Assembly (NCBI RefSeq): GCF_040215725.1
Contig: NZ_CP157970.1
Location: 169,370 to 233,369 of the forward strand
DNA from: Rhizobium sp. ZPR4
Lineage (GTDB): Bacteria; Pseudomonadota; Alphaproteobacteria; Rhizobiales; Rhizobiaceae
Length of the DNA stretch: 64,000 nt
Direction: 5' to 3'
Part shown: in pieces, positions 40,445-61,333 of the stretch
How the letters are laid out: each line of letters opens with the position of its first letter
Numbering within the stretch: position 1 is the first letter of the stretch
Notes under the pieces: generated by a model
Told to the model about the DNA's origin: nothing
The model's database searches: none
Seen by the model: the letters and a program-made list of their open reading frames with translations, nothing else
Position numbers and translations under genes: made by a program

Positions 40445-41146
40445 TCAGCGGGCCAGCGTCCGCCTGACCGCAGCGATGCCGCGGCGCAGGAACGGATCGG
40501 AATGGATGTAGAAAAATTGGACGCCCTGCTCGAACCAGACGGGAAGTTCGTCTGCCGTCACAAGAGTGCCCGCCACCTTTCCGGCTGAACGAATCTTTCG
40601 AACCGCCTCGCCGACCTTCTCGCGGACTTCTACCGGGCGCGCTTCACCGAAGGGCGGCGCCGGCGGGAAACCCATGTTCTGGGAAAGATCCCCCGGGCCG
40701 ATGAAAAAGACATCCACCCCTTCAACCGCCAGCATTTCCTCGAGCTTGTCGATCGCATCGACGGTTTCGATCATTGCCACCAAGAGGCGCTTCTCATGAT
40801 CCGACGGAAGGGCGTAGCGAACGGCATCGACAATGGCGCGCAATTGATCGGCGTTCTCCACCATGGGCATCATGATGCCGTCGACGCCCGCGTTCAGGTA
40901 GCGGATGATGATCGGACGCTCGTGGGAATGCGGCCGGACGATCGCGCTGCCGCCGACGGAGCGAACGATCTGCGAGGTTTCGCGGACATCCTCGAAGCTC
41001 CATGTACCGTGCTCGCAATCGACGAACACCGAGTCGGCGCCAAGCTCGATCAGGCGGGCTGCCAGCCCTGAGGAGCAATGATGTGGCGTGAACATGGTTA
41101 CGGGTTCGCCGGCCTGAAGGCTGGCGCGCAGTTTTGCTCCATTCAT
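40445..41146 (-). CDS. HpcH/HpaI-family aldolase
   Basis: 233-residue metal-dependent class II aldolase of the HpaI/2-dehydro-3-deoxy-glucarate aldolase fold. Landmarks are SVFVDCEHGTWSFEDV, RPHSHERPIIIRYLNAGVDGIMMPMVE (positions about 66-92), and the glycine-rich FIGPGDLSQNMG. Members cleave 4-hydroxy-2-oxo acids to pyruvate plus an aldehyde. GGAGG precedes the ATG. It is the last gene of the hyuA-hyuB-SDR-aldolase series, separated from the SDR by 15 bp, so it probably performs the final carbon-carbon cleavage of the pathway. Substrate unknown. Confidence 0.9.
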   Translation of the reverse strand: MNGAKLRASLQAGEPVTMFTPHHCSSGLAARLIELGADSVFVDCEHGTWSFEDVRETSQIVRSVGGSAIVRPHSHERPIIIRYLNAGVDGIMMPMVENADQLRAIVDAVRYALPSDHEKRLLVAMIETVDAIDKLEEMLAVEGVDVFFIGPGDLSQNMGFPPAPPFGEARPVEVREKVGEAVRKIRSAGKVAGTLVTADELPVWFEQGVQFFYIHSDPFLRRGIAAVRRTLAR

Positions 41147-41161: not shown

Positions 41162-41965
41162 TTAGCTTTTCGGTAGATCCGGCGTGTCGGCGGGCGCTCC
41201 CACCCATCGCGCAATTTCGATGTCGGCAGATGTGTCACGCATGAATGTCGGACAAATATGCAGCTCCGGAATCACGGCCCCTTTTTCCAGGCTGGCGCAC
41301 AGCGCGATCGCGCGTGCGACATCGTGCGGATCGAGCATGACCGCGCGTTCGCTATCGAGCGGCGGGCGGGCTCGATTGTTCATGATCGGCGTGTTCGTCT
41401 CACCGGGAAGGACGGTCGTCGCCCGAATGCCCTGGTTGCGGTAGGTGTTATGAAGGAAGGTCATGAAGTTCTTCACGCCCGCCTTCGCGGCACCATAGGC
41501 GGCACCGCCAAGAAGATTGGGATTGAGCACCGCCAGCGACGACACGGTGATGATAGTTCCCTCGCCTTTGGCAATCATGTCCGGGAGCACTGCCTGGGTC
41601 AGATTGAAAACGGCCGTCAGATTGACATTGACGGTCGAGTTCCATTCCTCCTCGCTCAAGAACCGGGCGTTCAGCACCTTGCTGGCGCTTCCGGCATTAT
41701 TGACGAGAATATCGACCGGGCCGACCTCTTCCGTCACCCATTTGACGGCCGCGGAGATCTCGTCCCGTGACGCGATGTCGAGCGCTCTCGGGAAAGCTTT
41801 GCCGCCTGCGGCGGCGATTTGCTCGGCAACCTCGCGCAGCGGATCGAGCCGGCGTCCGGTCAGGACCACACTGGCGCCATCCTTTGCGAGCAGAAGTGCT
41901 GCTTCCTTGCCAATTCCGGTCCCGGCTCCGGTTACGAGAGCGATCTTCCCATCAAGCAAATCCAT
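41162..41965 (-). CDS. Short-chain dehydrogenase/reductase (classical SDR)
   Basis: 267-residue NAD(P)-dependent oxidoreductase. The cofactor motif is TGAGTGIG (12-19), the structural motif NNAG (89-92), the catalytic Ser about 142-143, Tyr157 and Lys161 (Y-G-A-A-K). A cofactor strand ending in TGRR suggests a preference for NADP, though that is weak evidence. The ATG follows TAGGAGA, 11 bp after the hyuB stop, so it is cotranscribed. It may oxidise a hydroxyl intermediate ahead of the aldolase step. Confidence 0.93.
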   Translation of the reverse strand: MDLLDGKIALVTGAGTGIGKEAALLLAKDGASVVLTGRRLDPLREVAEQIAAAGGKAFPRALDIASRDEISAAVKWVTEEVGPVDILVNNAGSASKVLNARFLSEEEWNSTVNVNLTAVFNLTQAVLPDMIAKGEGTIITVSSLAVLNPNLLGGAAYGAAKAGVKNFMTFLHNTYRNQGIRATTVLPGETNTPIMNNRARPPLDSERAVMLDPHDVARAIALCASLEKGAVIPELHICPTFMRDTSADIEIARWVGAPADTPDLPKS

Positions 41966-41976
41966 TTCGAAATCTC

Positions 41977-43653
41977 CTATTCTGCGGCGACGGCACTGGC
42001 GCCCTTATAGCCGTAGACGGTCTTCGCTGCCTGTGGCGTAATCAAGCCCTGCGCGAGATCCTGTTCAACAAACTCGGCCGCGCGCTCGCTTGCTGGCCCC
42101 CAGCCGCCGCCGCCGGGAGTTTCGACTTCGAGCCGTTCGCCCGTCTTGAGAACGACCTTGCCCTTGGGAAACTGTGGCTTGCCTTCCTTCATGACCTTGC
42201 CGGCAGTTCCGCTCTGCCCTTCGACGACGCCGAAGCAGGGATGACGCACACGCTCGGATGCGAGATAGATGTTCATCGGCGATTTGCCGAGGTTACGAAG
42301 AACGACGCGCTGCCCCAGACCTCCGCGATGCTTGCCGGCGCCGCCGGAGTCGGCGATGAGCTCCTTGCGCTCGGTGAGCGCGGGAACGGCGATCTCGAAC
42401 ATCTCGATTGCGGTGACCTTGCAGTTCGACGGGAAGCTCAGTGTGTCGAGGCCATCGAATTCCGCGCGGGCGCCCTGGCCGCCATGGAAATTCTGAACAG
42501 AGCCATATTGCGTGCCATCGTCGCGGCGGCCGACGCAGTTCGCCGCCCAGATCGGCGCGCCGCCGCTGTCACCCATAACCTTGTCGGGAACCACCCGCTG
42601 CAAAGCTTTGAAGATCAGCGACGGGATGGCGTGGCCGATCAGGTTGCGCGAATTGCCGGCCGTCCATTGTTCGGGATTGAGAATCGATCCGAGCGGGGCG
42701 TCGTCGGTGATCGGTGTGATGCAGCCTTCGTTGTTCGGCGTATCCGGATCAAGAAGGCACTTCAGCGCATAGACGGAATGAGCGTAGCGGTAATTGGTGC
42801 GGCAATTGATGGAATGCAGCACCTGTGCCGATGTTCCGGCATAATCGACGTGGATGGAATCGTCGTTTACGACCACCGTCGCCTTGAGCTTGATGTCGAC
42901 GTCGTAGCCATCGAGAAGCATTTCCGCCGGATAGCTGCCGTTCGGCCACTCGCGAATGGCCTTGCGTGTCTGCGCTTCGGAGCGCGTGTGGATGGCACTC
43001 GCCAGACCATCGACATCGTCGAGACCGTATTCGTCGAGAAACTTGACGAGCTCGCGTCCCATAACATTGTTCGCGGCGATCATGGATTCGAGATCGCCAC
43101 GCACTTCGGTCGGAAGGCGCACCGATGCCTCGATAATGTCGAACACGTCCTTGTTTGGCACACCGGCCTTCAGCAGTTTCACGATCGGAAAACGGATGCC
43201 TTCCTCGAAGATGTCGCTGGCCTCGGAGTGGAGCGGCGCTCCGCCGATGTCCGGGAGATGGGCGATGGAACCTGCGTACGCGACGACCTTTCCATTCTTG
43301 AAGATGGGCGTGATCATGGTCACGTCCGGAAGATGTCCGGTTCCGATCTCGGGATCGTTGGTCGCGAGCACATCGCCTTCTTCCAGCGTCTCGGCGGGAA
43401 ACTTCGGCAGAAAAAACTTCTGCGCGGCTGCGGGCAGCGACGTGATGAAAACCGGGATCGACCAGGTGCATTGGGCCAGCGCCCGCCCCTTGCTGTCGAG
43501 AAGAACGGTCACATAATCGTGGTTCTCGCGCACGATCGGCGAGAATGCCGTCTTGCCGAGCACGTTGTCAGCCTGGTCCGCGATGAAGATCAGGCGGTTC
43601 CACATGACCTGCAGATTGATAGGATCGTTGAAGTCAGTGATGGGCTTCGACAT
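41977..43653 (-). CDS. Hydantoinase B/5-oxoprolinase family protein (HyuB-type)
   Basis: 558-residue subunit of an ATP-dependent amidohydrolase or carboxylase. Family blocks include FSPIVRENHDYVTVLLD, VLATNDPEIGTGHLPDVTMI, GGAPLHSEASDIFEEGIRFP, VDYAGTSAQV and the C-terminal glycine-rich SGGAGKHRGGLGQR and TPGGGGWGP. It acts with the HyuA subunit encoded just upstream; its ribosome-binding site overlaps the hyuA stop. Known pairs act on N-methylhydantoin, 5-oxoproline, acetophenone or acetone, so the substrate cannot be fixed from sequence. Confidence 0.94.
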   Translation of the reverse strand: MSKPITDFNDPINLQVMWNRLIFIADQADNVLGKTAFSPIVRENHDYVTVLLDSKGRALAQCTWSIPVFITSLPAAAQKFFLPKFPAETLEEGDVLATNDPEIGTGHLPDVTMITPIFKNGKVVAYAGSIAHLPDIGGAPLHSEASDIFEEGIRFPIVKLLKAGVPNKDVFDIIEASVRLPTEVRGDLESMIAANNVMGRELVKFLDEYGLDDVDGLASAIHTRSEAQTRKAIREWPNGSYPAEMLLDGYDVDIKLKATVVVNDDSIHVDYAGTSAQVLHSINCRTNYRYAHSVYALKCLLDPDTPNNEGCITPITDDAPLGSILNPEQWTAGNSRNLIGHAIPSLIFKALQRVVPDKVMGDSGGAPIWAANCVGRRDDGTQYGSVQNFHGGQGARAEFDGLDTLSFPSNCKVTAIEMFEIAVPALTERKELIADSGGAGKHRGGLGQRVVLRNLGKSPMNIYLASERVRHPCFGVVEGQSGTAGKVMKEGKPQFPKGKVVLKTGERLEVETPGGGGWGPASERAAEFVEQDLAQGLITPQAAKTVYGYKGASAVAAE

Positions 43654-43664
43654 CGGATATTTCC

Positions 43665-45728
43665 TCAGAGAATGTTGATCACGAGATTGCCGCTGGCATC
43701 GACATGGAAGACGCCGCTCGGCCCGACGACCGCTGTCGATTCACGCTGCTCGACGATGGCCGGTCCCTTGATCTCGTTGTTCACCGGAAGCCTGTAATGG
43801 TCGAATACCGGGGTCTCCGCATAGACGCCCAGCTCCTGGAAAAAGACCTGACGGCTGCCCTTCCTGGCTTCAGCGAGCTGCGTCTGGTGCGGACGGGTTA
43901 CCTGGTCCTTCTCACCGCTTGCCCGCAGACGCCAGGTGATGACCTCGACGGAAGCGGCAACGGTTCGGCCGAACAATTCGCGATAGAGCTTGAAGAAGTT
44001 GTCGGTGAGTTTCTTCAGGAACTCGTCCCTGGGCAGCTTGCGATCCGGCAAGGTAACCGTGATCTCATGGCCCTGTCCGACATGGCGCATGTCGACGGTA
44101 AACCGGTTCGTGATCGTTTCCTTCGCGACACCCGCGGCCGAGACGACTTCCCCGCCCTGGGCGGCCAACTCGTCCAGGATCCGGTTCATCTCGTCACTAT
44201 CCCAGGAATTTATCGGCATCGGGTGGCTCATGGAAAGATCGACCGCCACCGGAGCGATCAGGAGACCGATCGCCGAGCTGACACCCGCGCCGGTCGGGCA
44301 GATGATTCGCTTGATTCCGAGCTTGCGGGCAATTCCATAGGCATGGACCGGTCCTGCGCCGCCGAACGCCACCATCGGCAGCGAACGTGGGTCAACGCCA
44401 AGATCGGTGGCATGCATCGCAGCCGCCTTGCTCATGGATTCGTTGACGAGATCATGGATACCCCAAGCACAACGCTCAACCGAAACACCAAGCGAGGTGG
44501 CGAGCCTGTCCATCGCCTCGTGGGCGGCCTCCCTGGAGACCTTGAAGGAACCACCGACGAAGGAACCGGTGCCCATATAGCCAAGCAGGATGTCGGCGTC
44601 CGTCACGGTCGGCTGGGTGCCGCCGCGTTGATAGGCTGCTGGCCCCGGCACGGCACCGGCCGAATGCGGGCCAACATCGAGCAGGCCGAGAGGGTTTTTC
44701 GCTGCGATCGATCCGCCGCCCGCGCCGATCTCGATCATCTGGATCGACTGAATCTTCAGCGGAAAGCCGGACCCCTTGCGGAAGCGCTGGTAGTGGGCGA
44801 CTTCGAGATCGGTGCCGACATTGGGCTCCCCGTTCGGGATCAGGCAGAGCTTGGCCGTCGTGCCGCCCATGTCGAAGGACAAAACGCTGGTCTCGCCGGC
44901 CACACGCCCGAATTCGGCGGCTGCGACCGCACCGGCGGCCGGCCCCGACTCGATCAGCCGAACCGGCAGTTCGGCAGCGCGGCGGCTGGGAACAAGACCA
45001 CCTGAGGAAGTCATCCAAAGAACCTGACGATCGATTCCTTGCCGCCCAAACTCTCGCTCGAGGTGGGCGACGTGTCCGGCCATCTGCGGACGCGTATAGG
45101 CATTGACGACCGTGGTCGACGCCCGGTCGAACTCGCGCATTTCCGGGCAAACCTCGGACGAAATCGACACGAATATGTCCGGATTCTCCTCACGAAGAAG
45201 AGCTGCCACGCGCTTCTCGTGCTGCGGATACTTGTAGGCGTGCAGCAGGCAAACCGCGACCGAACGGATACCTTTCTCGCGAAGGCGACCGGCGATCTCA
45301 CGGACGCTCTCATCGCTGAACTTCGTCATTACCTCGCCGTCGGCGGCGATACGCTCTTCGGCACCGAAGCTGTTTGCACGGCTGACGAGAGGATCCGGAT
45401 ACTTGATGTTCAGATCATAGAGATCGTATCGGCCCTCGTTGCGGATGCGAAGCATGTCCTGAAAGCCGTCCGTCGTGACGAAACCCGTCTCGACGCCTTT
45501 GCGTTCGAGAACGGCATTGGTAACGACAGTCGTAGCACCGAGAACTTGCAGACGATCCTTGTCGATGGATACGGCGTGTAATTCCAGCAGTTCCGAAACG
45601 CCGGCAACCACAGCTTCAGCCGGATTGTGAGGAGTGCTCAATACCTTATGAAGATGCAGTTCACCGCGGTCGTCGAGCAGCGCGAAGTCGGTGAAAGTAC
45701 CGCCAGTGTCGAAGGCCAGTTTTGCCAT
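43665..45728 (-). CDS. Hydantoinase A/5-oxoprolinase family protein (HyuA-type)
   Basis: 687-residue ATP-binding subunit of the actin/Hsp70-type fold. The phosphate-binding motif DTGGTFTD is at residues 7-14, followed by LGATTVVTNAVLERKG, GPAAGAVAAAEFGR, SFDMGGTTAKLCLI and AFGGAGPVHAYGIA. ATG 45728 follows GAGGAAA and starts the fold at the correct place; codons upstream to 45920 lie in the promoter region. A 46-bp sequence shared with the ABC transporter operon lies 104-149 bp upstream. It forms the catalytic complex with the downstream HyuB protein. Confidence 0.95.
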   Translation of the reverse strand: MAKLAFDTGGTFTDFALLDDRGELHLHKVLSTPHNPAEAVVAGVSELLELHAVSIDKDRLQVLGATTVVTNAVLERKGVETGFVTTDGFQDMLRIRNEGRYDLYDLNIKYPDPLVSRANSFGAEERIAADGEVMTKFSDESVREIAGRLREKGIRSVAVCLLHAYKYPQHEKRVAALLREENPDIFVSISSEVCPEMREFDRASTTVVNAYTRPQMAGHVAHLEREFGRQGIDRQVLWMTSSGGLVPSRRAAELPVRLIESGPAAGAVAAAEFGRVAGETSVLSFDMGGTTAKLCLIPNGEPNVGTDLEVAHYQRFRKGSGFPLKIQSIQMIEIGAGGGSIAAKNPLGLLDVGPHSAGAVPGPAAYQRGGTQPTVTDADILLGYMGTGSFVGGSFKVSREAAHEAMDRLATSLGVSVERCAWGIHDLVNESMSKAAAMHATDLGVDPRSLPMVAFGGAGPVHAYGIARKLGIKRIICPTGAGVSSAIGLLIAPVAVDLSMSHPMPINSWDSDEMNRILDELAAQGGEVVSAAGVAKETITNRFTVDMRHVGQGHEITVTLPDRKLPRDEFLKKLTDNFFKLYRELFGRTVAASVEVITWRLRASGEKDQVTRPHQTQLAEARKGSRQVFFQELGVYAETPVFDHYRLPVNNEIKGPAIVEQRESTAVVGPSGVFHVDASGNLVINIL

Positions 45729-45831
45729 GTTTTCCTCAAAGCAGAAGCACGGCGCCAAATGCGCCCGTTTACGACGAGCCCGAAAGGTCGAACCCTTTAT
45801 CTTCCATGAGGTTATTGGACAGCGGCGGCGC

Positions 45832-45877
45832 TTGGCCAACACAACTACAATCTGCCGCCATAGGGTTTGCTTATGGC
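45832..45877. promoter_or_regulatory. Shared 46-bp regulatory sequence, copy A, upstream of hyuA
   Basis: Forty of 46 bases match 53065-53110, without gaps. It begins with TTGGCCAACACAACT and ends with an inverted repeat GCCATA-N9-TATGGC (45857-45877) that also fits T-N11-A. Its near edge is 104 bp from the hyuA ATG. It is probably bound by the LysR regulator encoded just upstream; binding is inferred. Confidence 0.78.
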
Positions 45878-45955
45878 GAATATCACCAAGCCAAGAGCGA
45901 GCATGCGCTGGCGTGATCAAGCTCGCCTGAGGAAACCAGCATCAGAACCAGATCA

Positions 45956-46894
45956 TCAAACGGGGCGGATACCCGGATGTTGACTGCCGGTCATCTGTCC
46001 AACGATTTCGAGCAGGACCGCTCTGGCGGCAAGAGCCGGTTCCGACAGGGGAAGATGATCCGAAATGCACAATGAAACTGTGGCATCGATGACTGGCCGG
46101 GTGAGCGCGCGTACCTGTGCACCGGCGAATGAGGGCGTCGCCGTCACGACGGAAGCCGGAAGAATGGTCGATCCCAGGCCGTCGAGGACGGCCGCGCTGA
46201 GCGCGGGCACCGATTCAATTTCGGAAATGACGTCCGGGGTCGCTCTCGCCCGGGCCAAAGCATCGTCAATGAGACGGCGCAGCAGGTGGTTCTTGCTTGG
46301 GAGCAGAAGAGGCATCTCACTCAACGCCCCGACAGGCAGTGCATCGCCCTTACCACCAGGTAGCGGAGTATCGGGTGGAGAAACCAAAAACATCTCCTCC
46401 TTGAACAGCGGCTGGAGTGTGACGCCCTTGATCGGATCGGACGCATAGATCAATGCCATGTCCATCTTGCCGGTCATGATCAGCTCGCTGAGGATCTGGC
46501 CGAAGCTGTCGTTGATGTGCAAAATGATCTGCGGGTGCCTGCTCTTCATCTCCCGTAGCAGCGGTAAGGAGAGGGAACTGGATGTCGAATAGGTCGCAAG
46601 CCCGATGGAGACCCGGCCGGCTACCGAAGTTGCTGCCTGATTGATGTCAATCTGGGCCTGGTCAAGTTGCTTCAGCATAAGCTGGGCATGACGATATAGA
46701 ATGAGGCCCGCCTCGGTGGGCGTTATTCCGACATTGCTGCGAATCAGGAGCTTGTGCTTGAAATGGGTTTCGAGCGACGCGATCTGCTGCGACAATGCGG
46801 GTTGGGCCGTTCGCAGGATTGCGGCTGCGCGCGATACGCTGCCGGTATCGATGATCTTTACAAAGCTTCGCAACTTTCGGAAGTCTACACTCAT
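45956..46894 (-). CDS. LysR-family transcriptional regulator (NAC/CbbR-like subgroup)
   Basis: 312-residue regulator with an HTH at 4-62 (LRSFVKIIDTGSVSRAAAIL, then AQPALSQQIASLE) and effector domain from about residue 92 (GRVSIGLATYSTSSSLSLPLL). The sequence around the HTH resembles the NAC-like group. It lies directly upstream of hyuA in the same direction, with copy A of the shared 46-bp sequence between them. This makes it the likely common regulator of the hyu genes and the liv-type transporter. Effector unknown. Confidence 0.92.
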   Translation of the reverse strand: MSVDFRKLRSFVKIIDTGSVSRAAAILRTAQPALSQQIASLETHFKHKLLIRSNVGITPTEAGLILYRHAQLMLKQLDQAQIDINQAATSVAGRVSIGLATYSTSSSLSLPLLREMKSRHPQIILHINDSFGQILSELIMTGKMDMALIYASDPIKGVTLQPLFKEEMFLVSPPDTPLPGGKGDALPVGALSEMPLLLPSKNHLLRRLIDDALARARATPDVISEIESVPALSAAVLDGLGSTILPASVVTATPSFAGAQVRALTRPVIDATVSLCISDHLPLSEPALAARAVLLEIVGQMTGSQHPGIRPV

Positions 46895-46926
46895 GGTTCC
46901 ACGCTCTTTTCGTGGAGCCTAATCTC

Positions 46927-46961
46927 TCGGGAAGGAAGGATGCAAGCCTCTCCCTTCCCGA
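46927..46961 (-). terminator. Hairpin between aminotransferase and lysR genes
   Basis: Nine-base perfect arms (TCGGGAAGG and CCTTCCCGA) with a 17-base loop lie 16 bp after the aminotransferase stop. No T-run follows, so termination is possible but unproven; it could also stabilise the transcript. Confidence 0.45.
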
Positions 46962-46976
46962 TGCAGTAGAATGAAA

Positions 46977-48185
46977 TTATTGCAACGACCGGACGGCACT
47001 CTCGATGCGGTCGCAGGCCTGCCGGATCGCATCCATGGAGGTGGCGATCGAAAGACGGAAATACGGCGACAGACCGTAGGCCGCACCCTGCAGGGCAGCA
47101 ACGCCGACGCCATCGAGCAGGTAGAGAACGAAGTCGAGATCGCTTTCAATCACCTTGCCGTCCGGGGTCTTCCTGCCAATCACTCCGGCGCAGTTCGGAA
47201 AGAGATAGAAGGCGCCATCCGGCAGCCGGCAGGAAAGACCGGGGATCGCATTGAGGCGGCCGCAAGCATAGTCGCGCCGCTCCTTATAGATCTTCACGCT
47301 ATCGCGGACGAAAGCCTGATCGGCAGAGAGCGCAAATGCGGCGGCGGCCTGGCTGATCGACGACGGGCACGACGACATCTGCGATTGCAGCTTGTTGATT
47401 GCGGCGATCAATAGTGCCGGCCCCGCCGCATAGCCGATGCGCCAGCCCGTCATCGCATAGGACTTCGACACGCCGTTGGTCAGAAGCACGCGGTCCTTCA
47501 ATGCCGGGACGGCTGCCACCAGTGTCGTCATCGGCTCGTCGCGAAACCAGACCTGATCGTAGATATCGTCCGAAAGAACGAACACATGCGGATGTCTGAG
47601 GAGCACGTCGCCAAGCGCCTCCAATTCCTTGCGGCTATAGGCGGCGCCTGTGGGATTTGATGGCGCATTCAGGATGAGCCACAGCGTCTTGGGGGTAATC
47701 GCCGCCTCGAGCGCCTCTGGCGTCAACTTGAACCCCTGTTCCTGCGGGCATTCGACGATCACCGGCTTGCCGTCATTGGCGATGACCATGTCGGGATAGG
47801 ATACCCAGTATGGGGCGGGAATGATGACTTCGGCGTTGTTCTCCACGCTCGCCATCAACGCCAGGAAGAGAATCTGCTTGGCGCCGCCGCCAACGCAGAT
47901 CTCGTTGTCGGCATAGCTTAGCGACAAGCGGCGCTCGAAGTCTCCGATGATCGCCTTGCGAAGGGCCGGCGTACCGTTGACGGCAGTGTATTTGGTCTCA
48001 CCCCGCTCGATCGCGGCATGTGCGGCCGCCTTCACATTTTCCGGCGTGTCGAAATCGGGTTCGCCAACCGTCATGTCGACGATGTCCTTGCCGGCCGCCT
48101 TTAACTCACGCGCTCTAGCGGATGCGGCAGTGCTCGGCGAAACCTTGATGCGCGCCACGCGCGACGCGGCCACGAAATTGCTCAT
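46977..48185 (-). CDS. Class I/II PLP-dependent aminotransferase (aspartate aminotransferase-like)
   Basis: 402-residue fold-type I enzyme. Family landmarks are VGEPDFDTPENVKAAA, the SNPTGA segment (LILNAPSNPTGAAYS), the Tyr region LSDDIYDQV, and the PLP lysine in TNGVSKSYAMTGWRIGYAAG; the carboxylate-binding Arg lies in FRLSIATS. ATG 48185 follows GAGGAA. It sits between the transporter operon and the LysR gene on the same strand, and probably removes an amino group in the pathway served by the transporter. Specificity (aspartate, aromatic or other) cannot be decided. Confidence 0.93.
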   Translation of the reverse strand: MSNFVAASRVARIKVSPSTAASARARELKAAGKDIVDMTVGEPDFDTPENVKAAAHAAIERGETKYTAVNGTPALRKAIIGDFERRLSLSYADNEICVGGGAKQILFLALMASVENNAEVIIPAPYWVSYPDMVIANDGKPVIVECPQEQGFKLTPEALEAAITPKTLWLILNAPSNPTGAAYSRKELEALGDVLLRHPHVFVLSDDIYDQVWFRDEPMTTLVAAVPALKDRVLLTNGVSKSYAMTGWRIGYAAGPALLIAAINKLQSQMSSCPSSISQAAAAFALSADQAFVRDSVKIYKERRDYACGRLNAIPGLSCRLPDGAFYLFPNCAGVIGRKTPDGKVIESDLDFVLYLLDGVGVAALQGAAYGLSPYFRLSIATSMDAIRQACDRIESAVRSLQ

Positions 48186-48230
48186 GGATAGTTCCTCGGT
48201 GATGTTCACCCCTGCGGGGCGGTTGACTTG

Positions 48231-48333
48231 GAGCAATTCCAGGAAACGCGCCTAGCGGTTTTCCGTCCGGAATTGCGTATAGACAAAAGGCGAGGGCGTT
48301 TTCGCGATTTGAAGAAAAGCGGAAACGCTCTAG
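48231..48333. repeat. RIME-type rhizobial intergenic palindromic repeat
   Basis: About 103 bp with two imperfect palindromes: GCAATTCC...GGAATTGC in the first half, and GGCGTTT...AAACGCTC in the second, with the conserved CGGTTTTCCGTCCGGAATTG core. This is the layout of the Rhizobium-specific intergenic mosaic element. It fills the gap between livF-like and aminotransferase genes, and its terminal CTCTAG supplies the stop codon region of the ATPase gene. It would form strong RNA hairpins at the operon end. Confidence 0.82.
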
Positions 48334-49073
48334 TGTGCAGCTTCGACCTCGCCGCGCATCTTTCCGGTCAGGAAGAGTTCGCCCAGCTCCTCGTGAGTGA
48401 TGTCCTTGGGCAAGCCATCCCAAATCACCTTGCCGAGGCGCAGGATGACGGCGCGCTGCGCCACCTCCATCGCCTTCTTGGTGTTCTGTTCGACAAGCAG
48501 AATGGTCATTCCGGCCGCGTGAAGCCGCAGGAGTTCGTCGAAGACGACGCCGATCGCCGCTGGGGACAGACCGACCGACGGCTCGTCGACCAGGAGTACC
48601 TTCGGCCGCTGGAGGACGGCCATCGCGACCTCCAGAAGCTGTTGCTCGCCGCCGGACATGTTTCCGGCCAACGTCGTCCGTCGTGTCTTGAGGATCGGGA
48701 AAAGCTCGTAGACATAATCCCTGTCGGCCTTCACTTTTGCGTCGCGAAGCGTGTAGGCCGCCATCTGCAGATTCTCGTCGATGGTCATCAGCGGAAAGTT
48801 GCAGCGTCCCTGGGGCACGAAGGATATGCCCTCCCCCAGGATCGCCCGCGACTTGTAACCGGCAATATTCTTGTCGTGCCAGCCGATACTCCCGCCCTTG
48901 ATCGTCGTCATGCCGTAAAGGGTCTTGAGCAGCGTCGACTTGCCGGCGCCGTTTGGCCCCATGAGTGCCACGAATTGACCGGAGGGCACGTCCAGGTCGA
49001 CGCCATTGAGGATATCCAGGTTGCCGTAGCCGGCCCGAAGGCCCTGGATCGAAAGGTTGGAATTAGCCGCCAA
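48330..49073 (-). CDS. Branched-chain amino acid-type ABC transporter ATP-binding protein (LivF-like)
   Basis: 247-residue ATPase. Walker A is GPNGAGKST, the LivF-type Q-loop reads FVPQGRCNFPLMT, the signature is MSGGEQQLLEVAMAV and Walker B is VLLVDEPSVGL. It starts at TTG 49073, inside the end of livG (11-bp overlap), after a strong GGGAGG. The last gene of the transporter operon, its stop lies in the RIME repeat. Confidence 0.94.
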   Translation of the reverse strand: MAANSNLSIQGLRAGYGNLDILNGVDLDVPSGQFVALMGPNGAGKSTLLKTLYGMTTIKGGSIGWHDKNIAGYKSRAILGEGISFVPQGRCNFPLMTIDENLQMAAYTLRDAKVKADRDYVYELFPILKTRRTTLAGNMSGGEQQLLEVAMAVLQRPKVLLVDEPSVGLSPAAIGVVFDELLRLHAAGMTILLVEQNTKKAMEVAQRAVILRLGKVIWDGLPKDITHEELGELFLTGKMRGEVEAAH

Positions 49074-49836
49074 GGTAAGCCTCCCTCACACGCTGGTCCT
49101 GAATGATGTCGTGCGGCAGTCCTTCGACGAGCTTTATGCCCTGGTCCAAGACGATCACGCGCTGGCATATGCTGGTCACGACGTCGATATTGTGCTCGAT
49201 CACCAGAAAACTGACGCCGAGGCTCCTGTTTGCATAGAGGATGGTCTCAACGACCCGCTCGATGATTTTTGGGTTGATGCCCGCCATCGGCTCATCGAGG
49301 AGGATGAGCTTCGGCTCCGGCATCAACATCGAGGCAAACTGGATCAGCTTCTGCTGGCCGCCCGACAGGTTGCCAGCCGGTTGGTGCCGCACATCCCACA
49401 GACCGGCCATCTTGATGAGATCGTGCGCACGCTCCCGCAACGCGGCGACACGGTTCCTCGACTTCCCGCCGAGGCTGAACGTCGACAACAGCGAGGGAAA
49501 GGTGAACATCTGTCCGGCGATGATCAGGTTCTCCTCGACGTCCAGAGACCGGAAGGTAACGGTCTTCTGGAAGGAGCGGAGCATCCGGCCTTCCCGGGCG
49601 ATCCTGTTCAGCGACCAGCCGGTAATGTCCTGCCCATCGAGAATAACGGTCCCCGAATCCGGCCGCGCAAGACCCGTGGAGCAATCGAAGAACGTCGACT
49701 TGCCCGATCCGTTCGGACCGATGAGGCCGGCAATCTCGCCACGCTCGATATGCATGGTCACGTCGTTGACCGCCTTCACCGCACCGTAGGACTTGCTGAG
49801 ATTGTTGATCTGCAGAATGGGAAGATGGGATGTCAT
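49063..49836 (-). CDS. Branched-chain amino acid-type ABC transporter ATP-binding protein (LivG-like)
   Basis: 257-residue ATPase with Walker A GPNGSGKST, the LivG hallmark RSFQKTVTFRSLDVEENL, signature LSGGQQKLIQFASML, Walker B LILLDEPMAGINP and the C-terminal VREAYLGG. ATG 49836 overlaps the livM stop (ATGA) after GGAGGTG. The open frame extends far upstream but that part runs across the permease gene in another frame and is not translated. Confidence 0.95.
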   Translation of the reverse strand: MTSHLPILQINNLSKSYGAVKAVNDVTMHIERGEIAGLIGPNGSGKSTFFDCSTGLARPDSGTVILDGQDITGWSLNRIAREGRMLRSFQKTVTFRSLDVEENLIIAGQMFTFPSLLSTFSLGGKSRNRVAALRERAHDLIKMAGLWDVRHQPAGNLSGGQQKLIQFASMLMPEPKLILLDEPMAGINPKIIERVVETILYANRSLGVSFLVIEHNIDVVTSICQRVIVLDQGIKLVEGLPHDIIQDQRVREAYLGG

Positions 49837-50819
49837 TTCACACCTCCGATCATGCCCCAGAAGCGGTTTATCAGTGGAGCAAAGCCCTTCTTGAACCAGA
49901 AGACGAGCACCAGCAGGCAGAGACCGTAAGCGATCATTCTCAGCTCCGGCGTGATCCGAAGCGCCTCGGTCAGGCCGACGAAGAGCAGACTTCCAATGAT
50001 CGTGCCGGAAATCGTCCCCGCGCCACCACCAAGTACGATGATGAGAACGGTGGTGGAATAATACATCTGGAACGTCAGGGGGCTGACGACCGTGAGATAG
50101 TAGGCGTACAGACTGCCACCGGCGCCGGCAAAGGCTGCACTGACCATGAAGACGATCAGCTTGTAGCGCCATGTCGGAATGCCGACGGATTCGGCAAGCG
50201 TCTCGTTTTCGCGGATCGCGACCATGTTCCGTCCCGCCGGCGATCTGACAATTGCCCAGACCAGCACGGTTGCGAGAGCCCCGACGGCCAGTGCGAGATA
50301 GTAGAAGTTGGTCGTGCCGGAAACAGTGAACGACCATGGGCCGAGGGCGAAGTAGGGCTTCGGAATGCTGGAAAGGCCCATATCGCCACGCGTCAACGAA
50401 ATCCAGTTCTTCGCAATCGCCTGCCCGATGATGACGAAACCCAACGTGCACATGACGAAGGAGGTGGAGCGCAAACGAAGCGCCGGAATTCCCAAAGGCA
50501 TGGCCAGGCCGCCGGCAATGGCCGCCGCCGCCAGCAGATTGACGTAGAAGGGTGTGCCGTAATGCACGGCGAGCAGGCCCGACGCATAGGCACCGATGCC
50601 GAAGAACGCGGCTTGCGCAAGCGAGAGCAGACCGGTGTAGCCGATAAGAAGGTTCAGCCCGTGCGCAGGGAGCATGAAAATCAAGGCGATGATGAGCGCA
50701 TGGGTCATATAGCGGCTGCCGACGTAGGGCGCCGCCAGAGCAACGGTGATCAGCAACATCGCAAGCGGGATGCGAAGATCGCGCCGCCGTGGCTGTGATG
50801 TCGTTTCGATGAGTGACAT
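49833..50819 (-). CDS. Branched-chain amino acid-type ABC transporter permease (LivM-like)
   Basis: 328-residue inner-membrane permease with eight to nine helices and the family block HGLNLLIGYTGLLSLAQAAFFGIGAYASG. The central GDMGLSSIPKP and VRSPAGRNMVAIRENETLAESVGI segments match LivM. GAGG precedes the ATG. It overlaps livG by 4 bp and follows livH by 37 bp. Confidence 0.95.
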   Translation of the reverse strand: MSLIETTSQPRRRDLRIPLAMLLITVALAAPYVGSRYMTHALIIALIFMLPAHGLNLLIGYTGLLSLAQAAFFGIGAYASGLLAVHYGTPFYVNLLAAAAIAGGLAMPLGIPALRLRSTSFVMCTLGFVIIGQAIAKNWISLTRGDMGLSSIPKPYFALGPWSFTVSGTTNFYYLALAVGALATVLVWAIVRSPAGRNMVAIRENETLAESVGIPTWRYKLIVFMVSAAFAGAGGSLYAYYLTVVSPLTFQMYYSTTVLIIVLGGGAGTISGTIIGSLLFVGLTEALRITPELRMIAYGLCLLVLVFWFKKGFAPLINRFWGMIGGVK

Positions 50820-50856
50820 ATCATGTCCTCTGAGTTCGAGAGGGACAGCGGAGCGT

Positions 50857-51729
50857 CTAGAAGCGCGCCTGCGTCGAAAAAAGACCGTGGGGCCGCCACA
50901 TCAGCATCAGGATCAGGGTCGCAAAGCCGACGGTATCGCGGAACTGGAGGCCGATGTAGGTCGCCACCAGGCTTTCAGCGATGCCGAGGATCATCGCGGC
51001 AAAGAAGGTGCCGCGGACATTGCCGAGACCGCCCATGATGATGATCGGGAGGGTCTTGAACGTAATCAGCTCGCCCATGCCGCCATAGACACTGACGTTG
51101 ACCGGCGCGGTGAGCACTCCGGAAAGCGCTGCCAGTGCCGCACCTAGTATGAAGGTCCGCAGCACCACCTGGGAGACGTCGATTCCGACTATTTCGCAGC
51201 ATTCGACATTTTGCGAGACGGCCCGCATCGCCTTGCCCATGCGGCTATAGGTCACCATCAGCTCAAGGCCGATAAAGACAAGAATCGTGACCACGAGGAT
51301 CAGGATGCGTTGCTGCGCCAGGCTGAAGCCGAGGATCGAGACCGGCTCGATATAGCCGCCGGAGAAAAACTTGTATCCGCCGCCGAAGACCAGGATGACC
51401 GTATTTTGAAGCACGAGTGAAATACCGAGCGTGGTAAGCACCCCGGCCTCGGCGGGGGCGCCAACCATGCGCTGCATCACGAAACGGCCAACCAGATAAG
51501 CGACGAAAATCGTGGAGAGGACGCCGACCACGATCGAGGCCTCGTAGGAGAGGCCGAGATAGTCGATGGCGAACCACGCGCCGAAAGTGCCCAGCATATA
51601 GTATTCGCCATGGGCAAAATTGATTGCGCGCAAGACGCCAAAAATCATGGTCATGCCGACGGCGACGATCGCATAGACGGAACCGGTCACGATACCGTTG
51701 ACAACCTGCTCTATAACGGTCGAGAACAT
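50857..51729 (-). CDS. Branched-chain amino acid-type ABC transporter permease (LivH-like)
   Basis: 290-residue permease with about eight helices. The opening NGIVTGSVYAIVAVGMTMIFGVLRAINFAHGEYYMLG (positions about 11-47) is the LivH signature, and the GKAMRAVSQNVECCEIVGIDV loop is the coupling region. It lies 23 bp downstream of the binding-protein gene, with GGAGT before the ATG. It pairs with LivM to form the channel. Confidence 0.95.
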   Translation of the reverse strand: MFSTVIEQVVNGIVTGSVYAIVAVGMTMIFGVLRAINFAHGEYYMLGTFGAWFAIDYLGLSYEASIVVGVLSTIFVAYLVGRFVMQRMVGAPAEAGVLTTLGISLVLQNTVILVFGGGYKFFSGGYIEPVSILGFSLAQQRILILVVTILVFIGLELMVTYSRMGKAMRAVSQNVECCEIVGIDVSQVVLRTFILGAALAALSGVLTAPVNVSVYGGMGELITFKTLPIIIMGGLGNVRGTFFAAMILGIAESLVATYIGLQFRDTVGFATLILMLMWRPHGLFSTQARF

Positions 51730-51752
51730 GGTGATACTCCTCGCGACCGAGC

Positions 51753-52946
51753 TTATTGGGTCGGGTATTTGATGTCTGCGGTATAGGCACCCTTGATGTT
51801 CGGCTTGCCGTTTTCGATCTGCAACAGGATCATGGGCAGGCGCGCTTGATTGTGATCGTCGAAGGTCACATCACCCACAGGACTCTTGTATTTGATCTTG
51901 GAGAGCGCATCACGAACCTTCTGCTGATCGGTGCTACCGGCCTCGTGGATCGCTTCCGCCAGAAGATGCACGGTGTCCCAGTGAACATAGGCGTGGTTGT
52001 TCGGCGCCTGATTGTAGGTCTTCGTGAAATTCGTCACGAATGCCTTGCTTTCCGGGGAATCCCATGCAGGAAGCCAGGCTGCGGCTTCGACTGCGCCTTC
52101 GAGGGCCGTCGGTGCCGCCTCGATGGTCTTTGCCGTATTGAACTCACCATTGCCGATCAGGGTCACTTTTCCCGCCAGTCCGAGCTCGACCATCTGCCGC
52201 GCCACGATCGGCGTCGTGTCGGCCAGGCCGTACATGATGATCGCCTGCGCGCCATTGTCGCGAATCTTCGACAGCACGCTGCGGAAGTCGACCTCGCCTT
52301 CCTTGTAATAGTCCTCGCTGAGAATCTCGCCCTTGAATTCGGGGAGGTATTTCTTGGTGAATTCGATCGCCGAGCGACCATAATCCGTATCGACGGACAG
52401 TACGGCAAACTTGGTGAAGCCGCGCTGTTCAGCCGCGTATTTCGCAACGATCAAAGCTCGGTTTTCATCAGTCGGATAATTGCGGAACGTCCATTTGTAC
52501 CCGCCCACGCCCGCCTGGTAGGTGATTTTCGGATTTGAAGAAGCCGCGTTCAAAAGAAGGACGCCTGCATCCTCGACGACCGGCTGCATGGCGAGCGTGA
52601 CGGAGCTCGAAACGTCGCCGATGATGAACGAGACCTCGTCCTCATCGATGAGCCGCCTCGTCGCCGACACACCTTCAACCGGCGTACCCTGGCTATCAGC
52701 GGAGAATATCTCGATCTTGTGGCCATCGACGCCGCCGGCCTTGTTTATCTCATCGACGGCGAGTTGGGCGCCCTGCATGGAAAAAGCCCCATAGCGCGCG
52801 TTCGGGCCGCTCATCGGCGCAACGATGCCGAGCTTGATGGTATCTTCGGAAGCCACAGCCGGCGCCGAGATGGCCGGAGCCAAGGCCAGCAGCGGCAAAA
52901 GTGCCGTGGAGATACAAAGAGTTCTGCGAGTCAGAGAATAAATCAT
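51753..52946 (-). CDS. Branched-chain amino acid-type ABC transporter substrate-binding protein (LivK-like)
   Basis: 397-residue periplasmic receptor (Peripla_BP_6). The signal peptide ends in SAPAVAS; the mature protein opens with IKLGIVAPMSGPNARYG and contains the ligand-hinge blocks NAASSNPKITYQ and YGLADTTPIVARQMVE. ATG 52946 follows GGAGCGG; an in-frame start at 52973 is less likely. It is first in the operon and about 120 bp below copy B of the shared 46-bp sequence. Binding proteins of this family bind amides, aromatic acids and urea as well as branched-chain amino acids, so the ligand may be the hydantoinase substrate. Confidence 0.94.
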   Translation of the reverse strand: MIYSLTRRTLCISTALLPLLALAPAISAPAVASEDTIKLGIVAPMSGPNARYGAFSMQGAQLAVDEINKAGGVDGHKIEIFSADSQGTPVEGVSATRRLIDEDEVSFIIGDVSSSVTLAMQPVVEDAGVLLLNAASSNPKITYQAGVGGYKWTFRNYPTDENRALIVAKYAAEQRGFTKFAVLSVDTDYGRSAIEFTKKYLPEFKGEILSEDYYKEGEVDFRSVLSKIRDNGAQAIIMYGLADTTPIVARQMVELGLAGKVTLIGNGEFNTAKTIEAAPTALEGAVEAAAWLPAWDSPESKAFVTNFTKTYNQAPNNHAYVHWDTVHLLAEAIHEAGSTDQQKVRDALSKIKYKSPVGDVTFDDHNQARLPMILLQIENGKPNIKGAYTADIKYPTQ

Positions 52947-53064
52947 GTTCCGCTCCGTTTTAGGTACCTTCAATCGGTCCTTTTGGGCCGATTCTGCCGC
53001 TTGTGCGGTTCTTTAGGCGTCAGCCTCAGGCTAACCGCGTCAGAGTAAGTTCATGGGTTGGATT

Positions 53065-53110
53065 TTGGCCAACACAACTCCATTCTGCCGCTATAGCGTT
53101 TCGTTATGGC
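53065..53110. promoter_or_regulatory. Shared 46-bp regulatory sequence, copy B, upstream of the LivK-like gene
   Basis: Forty of 46 positions are identical to 45832-45877 and in the same orientation relative to the downstream gene. It starts with TTGGCCAACACAACT and ends with GCTATA-N9-TATGGC (53090-53110), also T-N11-A. Its near edge is about 119 bp from the ATG at 52946. It links the transporter operon to the hyu operon. Confidence 0.78.
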
Positions 53111-53327
53111 CGTTGCCCACAAGGCGCGATATCATAAGGAGCGCGCCAATTGAGCGAGAGGGGCTTGGTTTACCTGAACAATTGCCCTTCGACCGGACTC
53201 CCATGGCGAACCGATTTCTTCACCAAATATCGCAAATATCAGCTCTTAACAGGATTCGAACCATGGGCCTTATCTCTGAACAAGAAATAGCAAATGAATC
53301 GGTGTTAATTGGTCCGTGGCTCTCCCG

Positions 53328-54650
53328 TCAGTTTTTGTTCTGGTATGCTTTGGGAAACACTATGTCTTGATCCACGATTACATTAAACTTATAACCGGGT
53401 CTGATTTCGAGCGTCGGCTGGACATCCATGTTCCGCTGGATCGTCCGGTCGGCAACGCGCCCGAAAGTTTCGGCGAAATTCCGCCGCGCCGCATCGGATG
53501 CGGTATCCTGTGTCGCAAGCGTCGAACTCTGCGGCACGGCCATATCGATACCCGTGCCGATCAGCGCAATCAGCACCGCCGATCCGAACGTCTTGAGATA
53601 GTGATTGTTCACCTTATCGGCAAAACCTCCATACCCCTGCGCATCCGTTCCCGCCATACCGCCGATTTGCAGCGTCGAGCCGTTCGGGAAGATGATATCG
53701 GTCCAGACGACAAGCACGCGCCTCTGGCCAAAGGACACTTTGCTGTCATATCGGCCGAAGAGTTTCGTCCCCTGCGGGATCAGCAGACGATGGCCGGTCG
53801 CGCTGTCATAAACGTTCTGGCTGACCTGTGCGCTGATCCGGCCGGGAAGGTCCGAATTAATGCCTGATATGAGCGTCGCTGGAATGACCGAACCGCGCTT
53901 CAATTCGAAGGGCGATCGTTGTGGCACGACACCATTGGGAAGGTATCCGAGATTCTTAAGATCGGCGTTGAAGAAATCCTCCTTGGAGCGCTGCCCGTTC
54001 GGATCGACATTCTGACCGCCGAGACCGGCACGCAAGGCCGCAGTATAGAGATCGGACGGGGTTCCCGCCGTTGTCGATGTCGTCGTTGCCGCCTTAGCCG
54101 CCGTCGCGTCGTCGGTTCCCGAGCGCGCTTCCAGCTTGCCGCGATCGATGGCGAGCGGGGCATCATAGGCGGAATCTCTCGCCTGCAATCGGGCCATGCG
54201 CTGACGATACCGCTCGCGCAGATATTGTTCCTGGCTTTCGCGTTCGAGACGCGCCCGCCATACCTCTTCCGGCTCCAGCTCCTGCCAGCGCAGTTGTTGC
54301 TCACCTTGTCCTGGCTGAGGCGCGAAGGGATTGGTCCTCTTCTTCGCGTCCCGGTTCGTCTCGACAGGCGTTGGCTGGAACGTTGTCTGCTGCTGCGGCT
54401 CGCCAATGATGCCGTTCGTCACGCCGCGCTTGATCTGGTCGGCAAAAGTCGAGGCGGAATTTCCCGAACTCGTCTCCAGGCCGGAATCCTTCCCGAAATA
54501 CAGTCCGCGGGAAGTGAGCCCATAGAAAATGACGCCAAGGAAGGTGATGAGCAACACGATCACCGCGATGATTGGCAGGCGATTGATCCGCCGAATGCCT
54601 CTGTCAGCTTCATCGTTCGCGGTTCCACCGAGCTTGAGGGATTGTACCAT
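53328..54650 (-). CDS. trbI: Conjugal transfer protein TrbI (VirB10-like)
   Basis: 440-residue protein spanning the cell envelope in the mating-pair-formation type IV secretion system. A single N-terminal helix (IIAVIVLLITFLGVIFYGL) is followed by a charged, Gln/Arg-rich periplasmic linker and the C-terminal TrbI/VirB10 domain (GSVIPATLISGINSDLPG, LLIPQGTKLFGRYDSKVSFGQ, GMAGTDAQGYGGFADKVNNHY). The size equals that of Ti-plasmid TrbI. It is the last gene of the operon; beyond it lies the transporter promoter region. Confidence 0.96.
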   Translation of the reverse strand: MVQSLKLGGTANDEADRGIRRINRLPIIAVIVLLITFLGVIFYGLTSRGLYFGKDSGLETSSGNSASTFADQIKRGVTNGIIGEPQQQTTFQPTPVETNRDAKKRTNPFAPQPGQGEQQLRWQELEPEEVWRARLERESQEQYLRERYRQRMARLQARDSAYDAPLAIDRGKLEARSGTDDATAAKAATTTSTTAGTPSDLYTAALRAGLGGQNVDPNGQRSKEDFFNADLKNLGYLPNGVVPQRSPFELKRGSVIPATLISGINSDLPGRISAQVSQNVYDSATGHRLLIPQGTKLFGRYDSKVSFGQRRVLVVWTDIIFPNGSTLQIGGMAGTDAQGYGGFADKVNNHYLKTFGSAVLIALIGTGIDMAVPQSSTLATQDTASDAARRNFAETFGRVADRTIQRNMDVQPTLEIRPGYKFNVIVDQDIVFPKAYQNKN

Positions 54651-54661
54651 CGCCCCCTCCC

Positions 54662-55126
54662 TCAGCCACGTCGCATCAGCGAGAGCGCACTCGCCGGCGT
54701 CGCCCCGTTCGCAGTGACGGTGTACGCCCTGCCGAGTTCGACGCTCTCCGTCGAAAGACGCGCCAGAACCTGGCCATCGAACGGCATGATCACATAGCCG
54801 AGCGCGATGACTTTCGTGCCGCTATCCGTCTTCTGGTCGGTAATGACGGCATAGCCCCATCTCTTGAGCGCCGCCTCAAGTGCCTGCCCGAAGGGTGAGC
54901 TATCCGCCTTGAGAGCTATCGTCGCCTTTCCCGGTCCGATCTGTTCGGCAAGACGGCTGACCATGTCGCCGGCGATGGCGCTTGCCGCCGGGGGTGAGAT
55001 TTCCAGCGGTGCCGCGCTGCCGACGAGGCCGCCAGTCCCCGTCGACTCGCATGCGGAAAGCAGGATGGCGAGGGCGCAGGCTGCGGCAACGCTGAGGATT
55101 GGGCGGGGTCGAGAGATTCGCATCAC
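54662..55126 (-). CDS. trbH: Conjugal transfer lipoprotein TrbH
   Basis: 154-residue lipoprotein with signal sequence ending in the lipobox LLSAC (about residues 21-25), then a Gly/Pro/Ala-rich segment and a small folded domain ([24 protein letters not shown]). The position between trbG and trbI matches the Ti/Sym plasmid order. It overlaps the trbG start of stop/start DNA by 4 bp. It probably assists the outer-membrane part of the transfer channel; its precise role is not established in the family. Confidence 0.9.
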
Positions 55127-55989
55127 CGCCCTCCCCTGCTGATCGTCACCTTTTCCTGTTTCCAGCCGACGCCGGAGACGAGAACCGCGCGATCGATATT
55201 GTAATCGACCACCATCATATTGTTCTTCAGGCGATAGTTGACGATGCGGTTCTGTCCGCCGGAGACAACGAACAGAACCGGCACATCCTGGCCGGAGATC
55301 GAGCGCGGAAACTGGATGTAGGTTTTGAGGCCATCGGAATAGACCCGCGTTGGCCGCCAGCCGGCACGCCCCGAAACGGAATAGCTGAAACTCAACTGTT
55401 CAGCGGGAACGCCGGCGCCCGGGATCGTGCTTGCCTCCAGCCGGGCATTGACGTCTGCGAGCTTTGCAGAAACATTCTCCGGATATTCGAAGCCGACACG
55501 GGCCATATATTGGGTCGCATGCGACTTGAGCTGGATATGGTAGGTGCGCCGAGATGTCGTCACGACCATCGAGGTGACAAGAGCTGGCTCCGAAGGTTTG
55601 ACGATCAGATGGATCGCTTGGCCGCCTGGCGCTCCTGATGTCGCGGGCTCGACCTTCCAGCGCACCGTGTCACCGACCAGCACGTCGCGAACCACCTCCC
55701 CGCCTTGCAGTTCAATATCGCAGACCTGAAGCGGTGAGCAGACGACCGACGGCTGCACTTCGCCATAGAGAAAGATCACCTTGCCGTCCGCTCCCTTGGT
55801 GACGAGACCGCGCGATCCGCGCCACTGGCTGGAAATCCCCATGCCTTTCGCCTCATTGGCGGTAACGCCGTCGGCCGCAAGCGCTTGGGAAGAGAGGAAG
55901 ACCGAAGACGGCACGATCGCGGTGACGATGGCGCCGGCAGTCAGCGAGGCCCGTAGAATTCTGTGTCGGATGTTCATGTGCGGGGCCAT
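55123..55989 (-). CDS. trbG: Conjugal transfer protein TrbG (VirB9-like)
   Basis: 288-residue periplasmic protein with a signal peptide ([22 protein letters not shown]) and the VirB9/CagX domain: [52 protein letters not shown] and TYIQFPRSI near the C-terminus. It forms the outer-membrane core complex with TrbI. Start choice is uncertain: TTG 55998 overlaps the trbF stop, ATG 55989 and ATG 55977 follow. ATG 55989 is taken here. Confidence 0.94.
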
Positions 55990-55994
55990 GCCTT

Positions 55995-57862: not shown

Positions 57863-58077
57863 CGTGGTTTCATCTCCTGTCCGCCACGGATGTTCTGATC
57901 CGGATCGCCGCCGAAGAATTTTCCCCAATATTCCCGGCGCTCGGTATCTGAGGCAGGCCGCGAGGCGGCGCCCGGTTCCGAGATGGGCGTAGGATCGGGC
58001 TGAGCAATGATCCAGGTGATGACGCCGGCCCCGATAATCGTGGCCCAGGCGATCGCGATGACGAGGCGCGGGCTCAC
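57856..58077 (-). CDS. trbK: Entry-exclusion protein TrbK
   Basis: 73-residue small protein starting at GTG 58077, which overlaps the trbJ stop (GTGA). One N-terminal hydrophobic segment (LVIAIAWATIIGAGVITWII) is followed by a polar tail including EYWGKFFGGD. The position between trbJ and trbL and the size match TrbK, which blocks entry of a second related plasmid. Sequence similarity within the family is low, so the call leans on gene order. Confidence 0.87.
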   Translation of the reverse strand: MSPRLVIAIAWATIIGAGVITWIIAQPDPTPISEPGAASRPASDTERREYWGKFFGGDPDQNIRGGQEMKPRW

Positions 58078-61323: not shown

Positions 61324-61333
61324 CTGAAGAGCC

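Follow-up and report, generated by a model that had tools for sequence, protein, structure and literature searches.

Twin 46-bp sites, probably for a NAC-like LysR regulator, at the transporter and hydantoinase promoters of a rhizobial gene cluster

We analysed a stretch of 64,000 nucleotides from Rhizobium sp. ZPR4 (contig NZ_CP157970.1, positions 169,370 to 233,369, forward strand), hereafter the window, in which two similar blocks of 46 bp stand before the hydantoinase gene hyuA and the transporter gene livK of one minus-strand cluster. The cluster comprises 11 genes in the order livK-H-M-G-F, aminotransferase, lysR, hyuA, hyuB, short-chain dehydrogenase/reductase (SDR) and HpcH/HpaI-type aldolase, and we know of no substrate for it. 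A search of the open-licence literature, with subscription papers outside it, returned no description of the cluster or of its sites.

Two similar blocks in an 11-gene cluster

The genes of the cluster, with the basis of each assignment, are the following:

51753..52946, minus strand: periplasmic binding protein of the livK type, whose gene opens the transporter operon (Pfam Peripla_BP_6)
48330..51729, minus strand: livH, livM, livG and livF, the remainder of a branched-chain-amino-acid-type ABC transporter (open reading frames and annotation of homologous clusters)
46977..48185, minus strand: aminotransferase (NCBIfam NF004769, aspartate transaminase)
45956..46894, minus strand: NAC-like LysR-type regulator, proposed ligand of both sites (NF008410, identity to E. 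coli Nac)
43665..45728, minus strand: HyuA, ATP-dependent hydantoinase/lactamase-type subunit (Pfam Hydantoinase_A)
41977..43653, minus strand: HyuB subunit (Pfam Hydantoinase_B)
41162..41965, minus strand: SDR (domain match)
40445..41146, minus strand: HpcH/HpaI-type aldolase (domain match and solved relatives)

The initial annotation had noticed that a lysR gene sits next to the first block. It does adjoin it, and to this we add that lysR is co-directional with hyuA, downstream of the transporter and aminotransferase genes inside the livK-driven operon, and hence divergent from neither site. In the related loci described below, median gaps within the two gene blocks run from -11 to 79 bp (single gaps reach 367 bp), and the gap between lysR and hyuA measures 112 to 1454 bp, with a median of 162 over 51 loci. 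Since the gaps inside the blocks are short and the wider lysR-hyuA gap holds a site, there are probably two transcription units, the first of which ends with lysR. An inverted repeat (CGGGAAGG..CCTTCCCG) at 46895-46976 separates the aminotransferase gene from lysR, and could lower lysR transcription or set it apart.

Read in gene sense, the hyuA copy of the block is GCCATAAGCAAACCCTATGGCGGCAGATTGTAGTTGTGTTGGCCAA and the livK copy GCCATAACGAAACGCTATAGCGGCAGAATGGAGTTGTGTTGGCCAA. Comparison of 45832-45877 with 53065-53110 gives 40 identical letters of 46 without gaps, and the next best match to either copy elsewhere in the window reaches 26 of 46. Both blocks are oriented alike with respect to their genes and end 103 bp (hyuA) and 118 bp (livK) before the ATG, for which the initial annotation had given about 104 and 119 bp. 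The inverted repeat that it had described at the end of each block is present and fits T-N11-A in both copies, and the sequence flanking either block is unlike that flanking the other, as it had also reported. The parts that we distinguish within and beside the blocks are listed here:

45857..45877, minus strand: primary LysR recognition palindrome of hyuA, GCCATA-N9-TATGGC (core ATA-N9-TAT, 45860-45874; centre predicted at about -63)
45839..45853, minus strand: proposed secondary (activation) half-site pair of hyuA, AGA-N9-TGT (centred 21 bp further downstream than the palindrome)
45834..45839, minus strand: -35-like hexamer of hyuA, TTGGCC (placed by analogy)
45811..45816, minus strand: -10-like hexamer of hyuA, AATAAC, in orthologues frequently CCTAAC (17 nt beyond TTGGCC)
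53090..53110, minus strand: primary LysR recognition palindrome of livK, GCCATA-N9-TATAGC (block comparison and conservation)
53072..53086, minus strand: proposed secondary half-site pair of livK, AGA-N9-TGT (conservation and position)
53067..53072, minus strand: -35-like hexamer of livK, TTGGCC (conservation and position)
53044..53049, minus strand: -10-like hexamer of livK, CTTACT, often CCTACT in Rhizobiaceae (conservation and position)

A 46-letter IUPAC pattern allowing up to 3 mismatches found both blocks and nothing else, in the window (where shuffles predict 0) as well as in the whole genome of 7,736,088 bases. With the relaxed pattern CATAAN7CTATNGCNGCAGA and up to 2 mismatches, the genome yielded both sites with 0 mismatches and four other places with 2, a total of 6 compared with 11 for a backwards control. 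Further members of the regulon are not indicated by this search, and we reject them on that count.

Conservation of the blocks and co-occurrence with the regulator gene

Related loci were gathered in two ways: by DNA similarity of the region, where 6 plasmid records were taken out of 738 that matched, and by similarity to the LysR protein, where the best 80 of 116 were used. The motif alone was not a basis for choosing them. Once L044 had been dropped, as it comes from the same record as L034, 85 of the 86 loci L033-L118 were left: 57 with the order livK-lysR-hyuA and 28 with another order (L088, L090-L092, L094, L096-L118), which were treated apart. Conservation was computed over 58 rows, namely the 57 loci plus the window, containing 54 distinct livK and 53 distinct hyuA segments; these rows are not independent, because many come from close relatives.

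All 57 distinct records of the livK-lysR-hyuA order have both sites, with at least 30 of 46 letters, ahead of livK and hyuA. According to the record titles these belong to Rhizobium, Sinorhizobium, Agrobacterium, Neorhizobium, Shinella, Microvirga, Bosea, Bradyrhizobium, a Methylobacteriaceae bin and an Amaricoccus bin. Among the observations that would speak against its reading, the initial annotation had named homologous clusters lacking the motif, and none of this gene order was seen. Mean information within the block is 1.53 bits per column for livK and 1.62 for hyuA, compared with 0.26 (livK) and 0.20 (hyuA) over the 15 upstream columns and 0.56 and 0.47 over the 15 that lie downstream. 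It stands at 1.14 (livK) and 0.80 bits (hyuA) around the -10-like hexamer, which keeps a fixed distance of 17 nt past TTGGCC, and at 0.25 and 0.33 beyond it. Invariant in both copies are A4, T5, T16-A17-T18, C21-G22, C24-A25-G26-A27, T37 and T40; in the hyuA copy the ATA and TAT are unchanged in 58 of 58 rows. Columns 24-27, 32-34 and 36-38, which lie between the primary site and the -35 position, are conserved as well.

That the two copies have 40 of 46 letters in common could reflect a recent duplication, or make of them a repeat element devoid of regulatory meaning. If so, copies from the same genome should be markedly more alike than unlike copies from different genomes; no clear excess of this kind is seen, the mean match being 36.2 of 46 in the first case and 35.5 in the second. 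On the other hand, the copies of the window match their own orthologues at a mean of 39.2 (livK) and 40.9 (hyuA) of 46, and letters specific to each copy are retained at positions 9, 14, 28 and 31. Within-genome identity barely above cross-genome identity, together with the retained copy-specific letters, argues for two old sites kept by selection, as the initial annotation had supposed. Furthermore, the flanks are unrelated, the genome holds no further copy at up to 3 mismatches, and each of the 21 cluster-bearing genomes of the survey described next has two copies. Duplication or a repeat element is therefore rejected on genome copy count, orthologue comparison and genus survey, and we regard it as scarcely credible.

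The genus survey covered 148 congeneric genomes and used a 42-letter pattern with up to 3 mismatches. The pattern occurs in 23 of them, and in 21 it occurs exactly twice, on one strand and about 7.0-7.2 kb apart. An orthologue of LysR (at least 81% identical) is present in these same 21 genomes, so that two sites accompany the orthologue in 21 of 21 cases and are found in 0 of the 127 genomes without it. Among those 127, 125 have no site and two have a single orphan site, the only sites found outside a cluster genus-wide. Both orphans are of the livK type (L129, 6512-6557; L130, 4915-4960). Cluster genes were not found around them in the 16 kb and 20 kb fetched, respectively, the L129 stretch showing one other ABC-transporter ATPase only, matched at 28.5-29.7%; as no cluster genes surround them, they look like remnants of a lost cluster. 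The one genome marked as the same species, G829, lacks both sites and the LysR orthologue, which indicates that the cluster is accessory.

The survey also bears on which protein recognizes the sites. It might mainly be another one, a paralogous LysR or a global factor, with the neighbouring lysR a bystander: T-N11-A is shared across the LysR family, as stated in the accessible part of PMC5002191, and LysR paralogues of 42-48% identity are widespread in the genus, one of them, 46% identical, in this very genome (G000:C3:134874-135794, with one TAA in the matched stretch). Site pairs are nevertheless confined to the 21 of 148 genomes with the orthologue and are absent from those with a paralogue alone; moreover, some paralogues have related yet different candidate sites, of low score, beside their own genes (for instance L012-L015). 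We hold a different regulator to be quite improbable. The pair of sites in 57 of 57 records and its company with the LysR orthologue in 21 of 21 genomes favour the joint regulon for uptake and catabolism that the initial annotation had put forward.

Predicted activator sites and their regulator

The layout of the blocks resembles that of LysR-type activator sites. In the accessible part of PMC4834489, LysR activators are described as binding, usually as tetramers, to a T-N11-A palindrome near -65 and to a secondary site extending to the -35 box, and the portion of the survey PMC5002191 available to us gives an extended LysR site, CTATA-n9-TATAG, with which the palindrome agrees. If TTGGCC serves as the -35 and the hexamer found 17 nt further along as the -10, both being predictions, the palindrome centre falls at about -63, and the centre of AGA-N9-TGT lies 21 bp further downstream, that is, two helical turns. 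This pair may be the activation site at the hyuA and livK promoters. The "operator-like" block of the initial annotation keeps its regulatory reading but is probably better described as a LysR activator site plus a -35 region.

The most probable interpretation, to which we assign a probability of roughly 0.85, is that the blocks are activator sites overlapping the -35 regions of two promoters, through which a NAC-like LysR protein would activate uptake and catabolism together in a self-reinforcing manner. Two sigma70-type promoters would drive livKHMGF-aminotransferase-lysR and hyuA-hyuB-SDR-aldolase. A LysR tetramer would place one dimer at GCCATA-N9-TATGGC near -63 and the other at AGA-N9-TGT near -42, beside the -35, and the LysR product of the first transcript would switch on uptake and catabolism jointly. 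Since lysR ends an operon whose own promoter bears one of the sites, activation would be expected to reinforce itself. What the analysis shows is the sequence itself, its conservation, the constant distance to a -10-like element and the company of sites and regulator; binding, the tetramer geometry, the direction of control and an inducer are what we infer. Control could also run in the opposite direction, LysR repressing both operons until the substrate arrives, as the overlap of the block with the -35-like hexamer might suggest; the primary site near -63 is however at the usual activating position of LysR proteins (PMC4834489, accessible part), and we consider a repressor operator very unlikely.

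The regulator passes the NCBIfam NAC model NF008410 narrowly, with 320.3 bits for a cut-off of 309, and this model is broad, since homologues L005, L006 and L012 pass it too. It shares the helix-turn-helix letters AQPALSQQ with E. coli Nac, to which it is just 38% identical over 296 aa. It could thus be a true NAC that relays nitrogen limitation without a substrate inducer, all the more as the pathway probably releases amino nitrogen. The NAC site we take to be ATA-N9-TAT near -64, which the open-licence literature did not confirm; the core and the position of about -63 found here resemble it. The nac gene has a sigma54/NtrC promoter. Here, a search of the gaps before livK, lysR and hyuA with a sigma54 pattern (TGGCACN5TTGCW, up to 2 mismatches) gave no match, which makes true NAC physiology doubtful. 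Furthermore, the two strong sites in the genome are unlike the reach of a global regulator: judged by site count, this would be a private two-site regulon, in contrast to enteric Nac. A true NAC is unlikely in our view.

Loci with other gene orders allow the association of sites and promoters to be followed further. Matrix scores were compared with those of 100 letter-shuffled 20-kb stretches (maximum -12.9, median -33.4). L088 (Aquimixticola), with lysR before livK, retains weaker candidates at hyuA (15.0) and livK (-6.5), and L090, in which hyuA follows livF by 35 bp, has a candidate at livK only (-9.7). In Variovorax and Polaromonas (L091, L092, L096, L098) the operons are fused, with a livF-hyuA gap of 30-40 bp, and in none of the four does either of the two best matrix matches lie before hyuA. 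Upstream of livK, on the other hand, the best match within 700 bp lies in gene sense 151-166 bp before the matched start in 4 of 4, with T-N11-A letters and a -35 region of the GTATTGG/CCTATTGG/ATATTGG type at one aligned place. All six rearranged loci are compatible with one site per transcription unit, although they do not prove it.

In 28 distant loci, whose LysR proteins are 46-61% identical, the top place of the 46-column matrix lies within 280 bp before lysR in 14, always pointing away from lysR; in 100 trials, column-permuted matrices reached 0.78 on average and 4 at most. The palindrome columns by themselves gave 8 of 28 (permuted maximum 5) and columns 22-46 by themselves 0 of 28 (permuted maximum 3), yet adding the latter to the palindrome raised 8 to 14, so that the secondary part helps only in combination with the primary one. 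Examples are L097 ACCATAAGCTGTGCCTATACGACCAGAGCGATCTCGTCTTGGCCTC and L117 GTCATAAGCGCTGCCTATCAACCCAGAACGAACTCGTCTTATGGCG. The second pair reads AGA-N9-TNT in several proteobacterial examples; in actinobacterial ones GAT replaces TAT and AGA is absent, hence the grammar is looser there.

Several observations weigh against the co-activation of both operons by LysR. LysR systems are usually laid out divergently and with autorepression (PMC4834489, accessible part), and lysR is co-directional here; it might also have its own promoter within the 82-bp gap after the aminotransferase gene. The livK copy has TTCC-type letters at the place of TTGGCC in 14 of 58 rows, which leaves the -35 assignment uncertain. 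With scores of -14.1, -38.4, -38.8 and -42.1, the candidates before livK in the fused operons stay below the shuffled maximum and are thus suggestive only; L092, L094 and L098 have no match above that maximum anywhere in the fetched locus. Finally, the top matrix match is not before lysR in the remaining 14 of the 28 distant loci.

Compared with known LysR-type activator sites, those described here share the palindrome with a 9-nt spacer, the predicted position near -65, the conserved letters up to the -35 and a regulator gene nearby. They differ in being two near-copies that serve two operons 7.2 kb apart, in the good conservation of the secondary part and in having lysR co-directional inside one of the two target operons. 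The twin sites appear to be a clear new instance of a kind already known. An 11-gene cluster of many root-associated bacteria hereby becomes a single testable regulon with two defined promoters, for which the sites can act as a reporter: if a compound induces a fusion to livK or hyuA by way of LysR, it is probably the nutrient or near it. The 58 loci with two sites each also form a natural data set on variation in LysR primary and secondary sites.

A broader proposal, to which we give slightly less than even odds, is that this 46-bp grammar (ATA-N9-TAT, a second pair 21 bp downstream, then the -35) is common to NAC-like LysR regulators of proteobacteria and actinobacteria, and was recruited in rhizobia as a two-operon positive-feedback switch for a cyclic-amide nutrient. 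If true, a shared site grammar could be read straight from genomes.

Enzymes, leaders and adjoining genes

HyuA and HyuB are of the ATP-dependent lactamase and hydantoinase kind, and by sequence HyuA has its best solved relative in N-methylhydantoinase. We infer a cyclic amide of the lactam or hydantoin type as substrate; neither the solved relatives nor the open-licence literature fixes it. A sensible sequence of steps would be ring opening, then transamination, then aldol cleavage. Transamination is perhaps dispensable or encoded elsewhere, since in three clusters (L076, L079, L080) no aminotransferase gene stands between livF and lysR. Caprolactamase CapAB of Pseudomonas jessenii (PMC8453981, accessible part) has the same two-subunit make-up and the same Asp-His-Asp-His metal-ligand spacing: D46/H107/D110/H132 of HyuB are spaced His-Asp +3 and His-His +25 as are 99/102/124 of CapB, in a reading of the motif unaligned to CapB. 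The pair does not qualify as caprolactamase itself: the scores of 516.9 bits for CapA and 219.8 bits for CapB fall far under the cut-offs of models NF050156 and NF050157 (1000 each). By its description, the Agrobacterium Ti plasmid pTiEU6 also has a HyuAB pair near LysR and import genes; its authors suggest lactam-ring opening for the hydantoinase/oxoprolinase A and B genes, and mention no operator (PMC6733357, accessible part).

The predicted hyuA leader contains two stem-loops:

45751..45795, minus strand: stem-loops of the predicted hyuA leader, two in number; pairs of the first change on both sides in orthologues

The first of them (GGGTTCG..CGGGCTC), shortly after the predicted start, keeps its pairing through two-sided changes. 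In 19 of 51 hyuA leaders, picked by hand, 95.3% of cells are paired, with two-sided changes in 6 of 10 pairs, a result attained by 0-1 of 500 shuffles; slid controls were also compared. Over 35 leaders 6 pairs are left, with 30-35 rows pairing, and four R. etli/phaseoli-type leaders break it. A comparison of 45500-53400 with Rfam gave a single match at E values up to 1, a snoRNA hit by chance, and no family for this stem-loop. In the livK leader, an AACCGC-N4-6-GCGG hairpin (52996-53010, minus strand) is near-invariant in 38 Rhizobiaceae leaders; covariation is uninformative here because the hairpin hardly varies.

Upstream of the livK site, conjugation genes of the Pfam families TrbI, CagX, VirB8, TrbL and TrbE occupy 53328-61398 on the minus strand. 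As they stop 217 bp before the site, transcription could run on from trb into the transporter operon.

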